A stretch of 58,897 nucleotides of DNA from a virus. A program made the translations under genes and the position numbers. The DNA lies in IMG/VR virus record IMGVR_UViG_3300014962_000007, positions 1 to 58,897 of that record, one strand, 5' to 3'. Shown one piece after another: positions 6,051 through 13,436 of this stretch (within the stretch, counting starts at the first letter, position 1; each line of letters starts with the position of its first letter). The notes beneath the pieces were generated by a model that saw nothing but the letters and a program-made list of their open reading frames with translations, searched no databases and was not told the origin of the DNA.

Positions 6051-6536
6051 ATGCCTAAAGGTAAGCCCGAGCACGTTACGCGACGGTGCCCTACGTGCGG
6101 TGCCGAGTTTGTAGTGTTGAACAACTATCATAAGTATTGCTCCCGCGCATGCCGCCAACCTACACATTCTGATACTACTGAATGGCAGTATTCGCGGGTG
6201 AGCGGTAACTGGGTGAGGTATTTCAACCGCCTATGCACTCGTAGCTTCAAGCGCGAAGGGCTTACTCCTACCATGATGCTGGAACTCCTTACTGCTCAGG
6301 ATGGTAAGTGCGCCTTGTCGGGGGTCGAGTTGACCTGCCTCTTACAGAAGGGGGTTGTCAGTAAGACCAACGCCAGCATTGACCGGATTGACCCCAAAGG
6401 GGCATACTCGCTCGATAATGTGCAGTTGGTGTGTGCGGTGCTTAACAAGTTCCGAATCGACACCCCACTGGACGAGTTCATTGATTGGTGTAGAAAGGTG
6501 GCAGACCATGCCGTACAAAAACCCAAAGAAGGATAG
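6051..6536 (+). CDS. HNH endonuclease with N-terminal zinc ribbon
   Basis: 161 residues. A zinc ribbon at the start (C13, C16, C30, C34; CPTCGAEF then YCSRACRQ) is followed by a helical linker and an HNH-like core: DGKCALSGVELTC, then ASIDRIDPKGAYSLDNVQLVC, in which the D-R-I-D segment and N of DNVQL match the nuclease fold of His-Me enzymes that recognise or cleave DNA. Unlike the first HNH gene this one has an ordinary AGGAG ribosome site and sits in the operon. It overlaps the next gene, also HNH-like, by 29 bases. Confidence 0.8.
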   Translation: MPKGKPEHVTRRCPTCGAEFVVLNNYHKYCSRACRQPTHSDTTEWQYSRVSGNWVRYFNRLCTRSFKREGLTPTMMLELLTAQDGKCALSGVELTCLLQKGVVSKTNASIDRIDPKGAYSLDNVQLVCAVLNKFRIDTPLDEFIDWCRKVADHAVQKPKEG

Positions 6537-6810
6537 AAACTACAAGCACGAATACCAGCTTCAAGTGGGGCGAGGTGAACTCGCTGACCGGATGGAGCGC
6601 CAACGTGCACGCCGAGCCATGGACAAAACCGGGGCCGACAAGAACGGCAACGGCAAGGCCGACAAGCGTGAGGGCAAGGACATCGACCACGTGAAGATGC
6701 TGTCCAAGGGCGGGTCAAACAAGACTGGCTTACGGCTCCAGACACCCGCCAAGAACCGTGCACGTAACGGCCACAGCGTGAAAGAACCGGGCGGGAAAAA
6801 ACCCGCTTGA
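6508..6810 (+). CDS. Small HNH-like nuclease
   Basis: 100 residues, strongly basic. The core is KDIDHVKMLSKGGSNKTGLRLQ followed by KNRARNGH, the D-H, G-G and N residues of a compact HNH motif. The first half (YKNPKKDRNYKHEYQ, DKTGADKNGNGKADKREGK) is a charged linker. The start at 6508 follows AAAGGTGG and overlaps the preceding HNH gene; the longer frame from 6355 is noise. Small proteins of this kind may aid packaging or modify DNA ends, or be mobile. A GCGGG/CCCGC hairpin overlaps the final codons, just before the helicase promoter region. Confidence 0.72.
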   Translation: MPYKNPKKDRNYKHEYQLQVGRGELADRMERQRARRAMDKTGADKNGNGKADKREGKDIDHVKMLSKGGSNKTGLRLQTPAKNRARNGHSVKEPGGKKPA

Positions 6811-6835
6811 CTTCAGCCGGGCAACCGGCTACATT
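6807..6835 (+). promoter_or_regulatory. Promoter with inverted repeat in its spacer, upstream of the SNF2 helicase gene
   Basis: TTGACT 6807-6812 and TACATT 6830-6835, spacer 17. The spacer is almost filled by AGCCGG-GCAA-CCGGCT (6815-6830), a perfect six-base inverted repeat around a GCAA loop. As DNA it could be an operator; as RNA, in read-through transcripts, it would be a GNRA-capped hairpin. The hexamers match consensus at five and four positions. Confidence 0.4.
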
Positions 6836-6841
6836 GATTCC

Positions 6842-6965
6842 ACTCCTCGCGGAGAGGGCGGTAGGTGAGCACTCCTAACCTGTTCACCGCCTGACAACCC
6901 GGAAAGACGGGTACTTCTCCGACTGAACGCACACCGCTTTCAGTCGGATGCGTCATGGAGAACTG
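6842..6965 (+). promoter_or_regulatory. Structured 5' leader RNA of the SNF2 helicase gene, riboswitch-like
   Basis: About 124 bases with at least four stem-loops: CTCC/GGAG (6843-6854); GGTGAGC/GTTCACC (6864-6870 with 6882-6888), competing with GGCGGT/ACCGCC (6857-6862 with 6886-6891); ACCCG/CGGGT with loop GAAAGA (6897-6912); and a perfect 10-base stem TCCGACTGAA/TTCAGTCGGA (6918-6927 with 6939-6948). Loop bases ACGCA 6927-6931 can pair with TGCGT 6949-6953, giving a pseudoknot next to the GGAGAA ribosome site (6957-6962). TTCTCC 6915-6920 is a perfect complement of that site. It matches no riboswitch class I know. Confidence 0.5.
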
Positions 6966-8504
6966 ATGGAAATCATCGACAACAAGGCTTTACTGCTGAA
7001 GGTGCGCAACCCTCAGCAGATTACGACCGTCATCCCCAAGAGCAAGGAACTGCCGGGGAACAAGGTCGTTGTGCACTGGGGCTTGGACGAGGCCCAAGTG
7101 TTGCGCAACATGCGCATCAAGAACGTCCCCTCCCCCATCATGGGTCGCTACGACTGGCCCGGCCAGTACGCACCCTTCGACCACCAACGCACCACTGCGG
7201 CGTTCCTGACCATGAACCGGCGTGCGTTCTGCCTCAACGAGCAGGGCACCGGCAAGACCGGCTCAGTGATCTGGGCCGCTGACTACCTGATGAAGGCTGG
7301 CAAGGTCAAGCGCGTGCTGGTGATCTGCCCCCTGTCCATCATGGACTCAGCGTGGCGTGCTGACTTGTTCAAGTTCGCCATGCACCGCAACGTGGATATT
7401 GCCTACGGTGCCAAAGACAAGCGCCGTGCCGTGATCAACGGCCCCGCCGAGTTCGTGATCATCAACTTCGACGGGGTTGAGATTGTGGCTGATGACATCG
7501 CACGGGGTGGCTTTGATCTGATCGTGGTGGACGAGGCCAATGCGTACAAGAACGCCCAGACCAAACGCTGGAAGGTGCTCAACTCCCTGATCAAACACGA
7601 CACGTGGCTCTGGATGATGACCGGCACCCCCGCCGCACAGTCACCGCTCGACGCATACGGGCTGGCCAAGTTGGTCAACCCCAAGGGTGTGCCCTCGTAC
7701 TTCACCTCGTTCAAGGACATGGTGATGTACAAGATTTCCAACTACCGCTGGATTCCCAAAGAGACGGCTACCCAGACGGTGTTCAACGCACTGCAACCGG
7801 CCATCCGGTTCACCAAGGACGAGTGCCTTGACCTGCCCGAGATGACCTACGTCAAGCGCACGGTCGAACTCACCAAGCAACAGCAGAAGTATTACGACCT
7901 GCTCAAAAAGAGCATGATCATGCAAGCCGCAGGGGAAGAAATCACAGCGGTCAACGCCGCCGTGGCCATGTCCAAGCTCCTGCAAATTTCTTGTGGTGCG
8001 GTGTACTCCGACACGGGCGAGACGCTGGAGTTCGACATCAGCAAGCGGTACAGCGTGCTCACCGAGGTCATCGAGGAGTCCAGCCAGAAGGTGCTGATCT
8101 TCGTCCCGTTCAAGCACGTGATCGGCATCCTGTCCCAGAAGCTGACCGAGGACGGGTACACCAACGCCGTGATCAGCGGTGACGTCCCTGCTGGCAAGCG
8201 TGCCGACATCTTCCGGGAGTTCCAGAACAGCCCCGAGCCGAGGGTGCTGGTGATCCAGCCGCAGTCTGCCGCCCACGGTGTGACCCTGACAGCCGCCAAC
8301 ACGGTAGTCTGGTGGGGGCCAACGTCCAGCCTTGAGACCTACGCACAGGCCAACGCACGGGTGCACCGCTCCGGCCAACGCCACCCATCGACAGTCGTCC
8401 AGCTCGTCGGCTCCGGTGTGGAAAGACACGTTTACAACTTACTAGATAACAAAATCGACGTTCACTCAAAAATTGTCGATCTTTACAAAGATTTGCTTGC
8501 GTAA
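6966..8504 (+). CDS. SNF2-family DEAD/DEAH helicase
   Basis: 512 residues, superfamily 2 ATPase translocase. Motif I is NEQGTGKTGS (G94-T98), motif II VVDEAN (D189, E190), motif III MMTGTP, and the second RecA-like domain ends in TLTAANTVVWW, then ETYAQANARVHRSGQ, the SNF2 motif V/VI block. Phages often carry such a gene beside a family A polymerase and it is thought to help remodel DNA or restart forks. GGAGAA lies five bases before the ATG at 6966; the in-frame ATG at 6948 has no ribosome site and lies inside the leader hairpin. A separate promoter and structured leader suggest its translation is specially controlled. Confidence 0.92.
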   Translation: MEIIDNKALLLKVRNPQQITTVIPKSKELPGNKVVVHWGLDEAQVLRNMRIKNVPSPIMGRYDWPGQYAPFDHQRTTAAFLTMNRRAFCLNEQGTGKTGSVIWAADYLMKAGKVKRVLVICPLSIMDSAWRADLFKFAMHRNVDIAYGAKDKRRAVINGPAEFVIINFDGVEIVADDIARGGFDLIVVDEANAYKNAQTKRWKVLNSLIKHDTWLWMMTGTPAAQSPLDAYGLAKLVNPKGVPSYFTSFKDMVMYKISNYRWIPKETATQTVFNALQPAIRFTKDECLDLPEMTYVKRTVELTKQQQKYYDLLKKSMIMQAAGEEITAVNAAVAMSKLLQISCGAVYSDTGETLEFDISKRYSVLTEVIEESSQKVLIFVPFKHVIGILSQKLTEDGYTNAVISGDVPAGKRADIFREFQNSPEPRVLVIQPQSAAHGVTLTAANTVVWWGPTSSLETYAQANARVHRSGQRHPSTVVQLVGSGVERHVYNLLDNKIDVHSKIVDLYKDLLA

Positions 8505-10189: not shown

Positions 10190-10200
10190 TCTTGGTTTGG

Positions 10201-10232
10201 GGGGTGGGGTAGCTCCCCACCCCTTCTTTTTT
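10201..10232 (+). terminator. Strong rho-independent terminator
   Basis: GGGGTGGGG (10201-10209), loop TAGCT, CCCCACCCC (10215-10223), then TTCTTTTTT. A nine-base, GC-rich perfect stem with U-tract. It ends the SSB-like unit, yet the primase-helicase gene follows only 34 bases later with no obvious promoter, so it may act as an attenuator. Confidence 0.9.
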
Positions 10233-13407: not shown

Positions 13408-13436
13408 GCCCCCGGCTCAACACCGGGGGCTTTTTT
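13408..13436 (+). terminator. Terminator at the junction of the early and late blocks
   Basis: GCCCCCGG (13408-13415), loop CTCAACA, CCGGGGGC (13423-13430), then TTTTTT on the plus strand. It abuts the stop of the giant minus-strand gene. In the minus direction the hairpin is not followed by a real U-tract, so it mainly stops the early transcript. Confidence 0.88.

Follow-up and report, generated by a model that had tools for sequence, protein, structure and literature searches.

Lambda-type nut sites of early phage leaders carry boxB, a 5-bp stem capped by a purine-rich loop of the GAAA type, and phage T4 gp32 represses its own translation through a leader pseudoknot upstream of the ribosome-binding site (RBS). 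The HK022 put antitermination RNA, about 70 nt in length, folds into two long, irregular stem-loops, which bind the zinc-binding domain of the RNAP β′ subunit (PMC9378689). Covariation also revealed manA and wcaG, phage-linked families of cis-acting RNA that form structured leaders in sequences from phages and marine metagenomes (PMC2864571).

Here, we analysed the leader of a helicase gene in a 58,897-base IMG/VR virus record (IMGVR_UViG_3300014962_000007; hereafter, the window), whose minus strand carries terminase, portal and head genes and whose plus strand carries replication genes. The most informative part of this leader is the hairpin at 6897–6912 (P4), which also occurs in unrelated phages, in tRNA arrays and in other leaders, and which the initial annotation of this DNA had counted only as one of four stems.

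Results

A structured leader upstream of a phage helicase gene

The leader is placed between a small HNH-like gene and the helicase gene, with the following features (window coordinates).

About 6508–6810: small gene 5′ of the leader, HNH-like by motif, without a match in the Pfam search
6807–6835, plus strand: sigma-70-type promoter from a consensus scan (−35 TTGACT, 6807–6812; 17-bp spacer; −10 TACATT, 6830–6835)
6842–6965, plus strand: predicted untranslated leader RNA of ~124 nt
6843–6854, plus strand: stem-loop 1 (SL1), CTCC-TCGC-GGAG, read from the sequence; no conservation seen
6857–6891, plus strand: stem-loop 2 (SL2), with two near-isoenergetic folds by suboptimal folding (−12.8 and −12.7 kcal/mol)
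6892–6914, plus strand: P4 hairpin, UGACA-[ACCCG-GAAAGA-CGGGU]-AC (stem 6897–6901/6908–6912; loop GAAAGA, 6902–6907)
6918–6948, plus strand: hairpin H (10-bp lower stem, C·U mismatch, 2-bp upper stem, ACACC loop)
6957–6962, plus strand: Shine-Dalgarno (SD) region GGAGAA, read from the sequence
6966–8504, plus strand: gene for an SNF2-related DNA helicase of 512 aa (Pfam SNF2-rel_dom, 2.2e-21; Helicase_C, 1.1e-14; phrog_62 DNA helicase, 3.9e-109)

The folding energy of positions 6807–6968 was −65.1 kcal/mol, compared to −48.3 kcal/mol (standard deviation 4.7) in dinucleotide shuffles (z = −3.6). Rfam 15 matched no family anywhere in the window at the gathering threshold, and at a relaxed threshold the leader stretch gave just two chance snoRNA-like matches, both on the opposite strand. 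No Rfam family was matched in the leaders of relatives, and the Rfam models of self-cleaving ribozymes (hammerhead, HDV, twister, pistol and hatchet) found no match in the window, in the relatives' leaders or in the P4 stretches searched. A candidate hammerhead seen by eye in the leader of relative L169 (CUGAUGA...GAAA) was not supported by the covariance model. A blastn comparison of the leader with cultured phages gave no match, and no paper describing a leader like that of the window was found in the literature search. The nearest cultured helicases share at most about 41% identity with that of the window; in Pseudomonas phage Rollin the helicase gene directly follows the upstream gene, and Xp15 and RHph_TM3_14A, as annotated, have a gap of 41 nt or an overlap before it. 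The leader is real and under selection, a structured, apparently cis-acting RNA that fits no Rfam class, and the fold and the Rfam result bear out the earlier description of a structured leader without a known class.

The 6807–6835 promoter probably drives this leader, with a transcript start that, judged from the position of the −10 element, would lie at about 6842. A TTGAC-N16–18-TANNWT pattern was also found 5′ of the leader in relatives (21 nonredundant spacers). The promoter spacer of the window contains a dyad, AGCCGG (6815–6820)/CCGGCT (6825–6830), that reads AGCCGG-GCAA-CCGGCT; 8 of the 21 nonredundant spacers hold dyads with arms of at least 5 nt, compared to 0.71 expected, and relatives keep the dyad with a different sequence (TAGCGC-GACA-GCGCTA in L010, ACCGCT-GAT-AGCGGT in L361, CCGCCC-CGCT-GGGCGG in L109). 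This inverted repeat is possibly an operator for phage-specific repressors. Strong intrinsic terminators lie within the replication operon of the window (10199–10225) and at its end (13408–13430), and the inner one also occurs ~3.2 kb past the helicase start in several relatives.

Pairings proposed to form an on/off switch are not conserved

The initial annotation had described the leader as a riboswitch-like on/off element. All of the pairings that it listed exist in the sequence, including the four stem-loops and a perfect 10-bp stem (6918–6927/6939–6948), and two stems within 6857–6891 that it held to be mutually exclusive correspond to the near-equal folds of SL2, which occupies the place where relatives have module A (described below) or other structures. 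As a two-state riboswitch or thermometer, the leader would use TTCTCC (6915–6920) to hide or free the SD region at 6957–6962, and the loop sequence ACGCA (6927–6931) would form a pseudoknot with TGCGT (6949–6953). The SD-pairing fold is 1.3 kcal/mol less stable than the MFE structure, with a pair probability of about 0.08, and is thus physically possible in the window; the alternative folds of SL2 would likewise suit a switch. The SD pairing is, however, no conserved trait of the leader family. Across 38 leaders, the longest SD-complementary run averaged 4.24 nt compared to 4.14 nt in shuffles, and the SD was unpaired at 0.49 compared to 0.46, i.e., hidden no more than by chance. Among shuffled leaders, 1.9% contained an exact TTCTCC and 11% some 6-nt complement to the SD region, and the complementarity in the window is not clearly beyond chance. 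No equivalent of the ACGCA/TGCGT pseudoknot was seen by eye in the leaders of relatives. We therefore consider a two-state switch improbable. What survives of the earlier regulatory proposal is a structured, conserved leader without a known class, and its on/off mechanism falls with the key pairings, which are not conserved; no conserved SD-hiding alternative was found, and no test result points to ligand sensing.

P4 is a paired element found in sense before and within untranslated RNAs

P4 occurs in many helicase leaders, usually 68–97 nt before the start codon and with differing stems (CCCCG/CGGGG, CUCCG/CGGAG, GCCUG/CAGGC and GUCGG/CCGAC). The window matches the pattern GRCA-N5-GRAAGA-N5-AC 74 nt upstream of the helicase start by the measure of the scan, as relatives do, and scores 37.8 bits against the P4 covariance model R2, of whose 53 seed rows it is itself one. 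R2 found no match in H-only, module-A-only or short leaders. Without the flanks required, 12 GRAAGA hairpins of the P4 kind were found in 899 kb of downstream sequence.

An initial scan with one form of P4 recovered at least 66 contigs, most of which were not helicase leaders. A second scan of IMG/VR used TGACA-N4-GGAAAGAC-N4-N-AC, which does not require the arms to pair, and recovered at least 120 stretches. Among the matches listed (106 read), 98 had all four arm pairs complementary, compared to 2% expected, and at least 27 arm combinations were present in at least 76 distinct contexts. This stem-blind scan shows without bias that the arms of P4 pair. An alignment of 53 rows, biased because they were picked for paired arms, had 99.6% of cells paired and 80 double changes, compared to 19 in shuffled and 18 or fewer in slid controls. 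The P4 stretches searched matched no Rfam family besides the tRNA and tmRNA genes themselves, and a text search of the literature on six P4 sequences found no paper naming the element.

In a set of at least 136 P4 contexts, collected with slightly relaxed patterns and including a few coding false positives, tRNA or tmRNA neighbours within 600 nt were in sense in 79 cases and antisense in none. In at least 15 contexts the tRNA starts 3–6 nt past the P4 stem, with isotypes that include Met, Val, Pro, Arg, Leu, Trp, Asp, Glu, His, Tyr and Gln. P4 also lies inside one phage tmRNA gene family (L447; Rfam tmRNA, 70.5 bits), and L423 and L428 look alike; a second tmRNA overlap, in L518, was discounted because its hairpin is non-standard. 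Among cultured phages, one of Microcystis and one of Bacteroides carry P4 before tRNA genes, and Xanthomonas phage FoX2 carries it in a noncoding stretch. In E. coli prophages and Stenotrophomonas phage BUCT708, a noncoding leader of ~0.7–0.9 kb beside a repressor-like gene holds several copies, with a spacing that is often about 50 nt. Pairs of P4 49–51 nt apart were also noted in noncoding stretches of eight phage or prophage sequences (L470, L502, L508, L511, L533, L551, L575 and L580), most with a further copy 114–505 nt on.

P4 most likely affects its own transcript, through elongation, processing or stability, because it is always in sense and lies ahead of or within untranslated RNAs; for the same reason, a translational switch cannot explain it. 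Large phage records hold one or two copies, mostly a single one even at 140–257 kb, which would suit hairpins that work as single-stranded DNA in transposition, replication or packaging. The complete sense bias (79 to 0) with a fixed distance to tRNA 5′ ends and the G-U pairs that occur in P4 stems argue against this explanation, which we regard as very improbable.

Helicase leaders are modular

Relatives were collected by three helicase-protein and two DNA-pattern searches, which gave 383 sequences, mostly metagenomic contigs, with a locatable helicase start. Their leaders are modular and range from almost nothing to >300 nt. Hairpin H recurs near the RBS with the same architecture, namely a lower stem, a Y·U mismatch or bulged U, a short upper stem and an A-rich loop, and mostly ends 16–29 nt before the helicase start. 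Judged by a structure parse against shuffles rather than by a curated alignment, 44 of 83 nonredundant leaders scored above the 95th percentile of shuffled leaders for H and 35 above the 99th; the H of the window scored 13.3, compared to a shuffled 99th percentile of 10.3, and was the sole high-scoring hairpin seen directly 5′ of the RBS of a gene in a scan of the whole window.

Many relatives carry a second element 5′ of H, module A, a 134-position pseudoknotted RNA in which the hairpin loop GUAAGGURYGRGU pairs with CRYACC further downstream; a stem interrupted by an asymmetric internal loop comes next. Across 39 nonredundant rows, 93.9% of cells were paired, with 184 double changes compared to 59 in shuffled and at most 45 in slid controls. 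Module A is a new structured RNA for which Rfam has no model. Its covariance model R1 found it before the helicases of L161 (58% identical to the nearest query), L401, L268, L366 and others; in the window R1 was negative even with filters off, so module A was rejected as the 5′ part of this leader. The nearest relatives of the window have leaders with H only. Covariation in homologous phages, which the initial annotation had named as a check, was thus found, in that parts of the leader are kept by compensatory change.

On the helicase tree, leader types, labelled partly by eye, need 43 changes in all, with at least 9 for 'short' leaders, and the 5′ parts are therefore often gained, lost or replaced, as expected of an optional regulatory RNA. 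Other leader forms were also noted. A compact leader about 40–100 nt before the helicase start in L040, L042, L060, L062, L068, L369 and L065 contains an apparent H-type pseudoknot, CAGA-CCUAGCCCCA-UCUG-GUGGACGAAGC-GGGGCU, both helices of which change together, by eye, in L059 and L065; Rfam matched none of those searched. Inserts in the helicase leaders of L024, L139, L175 and L186 resemble tRNA in their acceptor-like ends and a T-arm-like GGTTTGAATCC; ARAGORN found no tRNA in them. L024 and L235, whose leaders otherwise differ, share a structured insert, GGGATTGCGGCT-AGGGCTAGACC...GAAGCCCTAGACC...CAGTCCC, and Rfam gave no match to L024.

In nearly all cases seen, H and module A accompany the helicase gene. 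This constancy, the short distance between H and the start codon, and the placement of pseudoknotted leaders before a gene for a nucleic-acid-binding protein would fit an autogenous operator, at which an early phage protein, either the helicase or another one, would bind the leader to repress its own translation. We judge this unlikely, as the leader is lost in many close relatives that retain the helicase, and P4, at least, must have another role given its occurrence before tRNAs and inside tmRNA. H itself most likely acts on translation initiation or on the stability of the start region, as suggested by its tie to one gene and its RBS.

Discussion

Our analysis established the existence and pairing of these elements, their covariation, strand-specific placement, and modular loss or replacement. 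We tentatively favour, with somewhat less than even confidence, a model in which the leader of this phage replication operon is a promoter-proximal, cis-acting RNA assembled from exchangeable modules. P4 would be a docking site on the nascent RNA for a widely conserved host factor, whose identity and action we infer, and the factor would keep untranslated phage RNA elongating, in the manner of nut- or put-like antitermination, or would steer its processing or stability. H, fixed just 5′ of the SD in this helicase family only, would set translation initiation or protect the start region.

A role in elongation fits the promoter-proximal place of P4 and its early-leader contexts. The terminator inside the operon is present with the H-only leaders L003, L005, L007 and L008 and absent with the module A leaders L010, L012 and L014; overall, helicase-operon terminators did not correlate with leader type, which weakens the antitermination reading. 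Processing fits at least as well, because P4 is found within a tmRNA and immediately ahead of the 5′ ends of tRNAs. P4 and/or H could mark a cut, by a host RNase or by the RNA itself, that leaves the helicase mRNA with a protected hairpin at its 5′ end and trims noncoding RNA and tRNA precursors. The end of the P4 stem lies 3–6 nt before mature tRNA 5′ ends in those at least 15 contexts, copies recur on a single strand around noncoding stretches at intervals of 37–877 nt, and H has the stem/internal loop/stem shape of some RNase III sites. In the window, however, H is specific to one gene, unlike generic processing signals, and the Rfam ribozyme families gave no match. On balance we hold processing or 5′-end stabilisation to be somewhat unlikely as the main function; a docked host factor is preferred, with processing close behind.

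More broadly, we give about even weight, for and against, to the proposal that P4 (UGACA-N5-GAAAGA-N5′-AAC) is an undescribed RNA element of unrelated temperate and lytic phages from several bacterial phyla, which heads untranslated RNAs (tRNA arrays, early leaders and tmRNA), is read by a conserved host factor and controls elongation or maturation of the noncoding transcripts of these phages, with the helicase leader as one instance. If this is true, transcripts of phages as different as E. coli prophages and the phages of Bacteroides and Microcystis are marked by one 16-nt hairpin flanked by GACA and AC. P4, which can be searched for with a single pattern, would then reveal the host machinery on which phages depend for the production or protection of tRNA arrays and other untranslated RNA. 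Module A and H also supply definite examples of leader RNAs that covary and precede a phage replication helicase gene.

Compared to described systems, the helicase leader differs from manA and wcaG, which precede exopolysaccharide or metabolic genes, and it matches no Rfam family. Like the gene 32 leader of T4, the pseudoknotted leader of the relatives with module A precedes a gene for a nucleic-acid-binding protein of DNA metabolism, but the window lacks module A. P4 resembles lambda-type boxB in its 5-bp stem, GAAA-type purine-rich loop and early phage leaders; unlike boxB, it has a fixed hexaloop (GRAAGA) and GACA and AC flanks common to unrelated phages, it also lies before tRNAs and inside tmRNA, and no boxA was noted with it. 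In a reverse test, neither the P4 pattern nor R2 matched the HK022 genome, which weighs against P4 being put itself. P4, at 16 nt with a 5-bp stem, is also smaller than the two stem-loops of put; the likeness to put lies in a phage-encoded nascent RNA with stem-loops near an early promoter, for which a dedicated phage protein is expected to be unnecessary.
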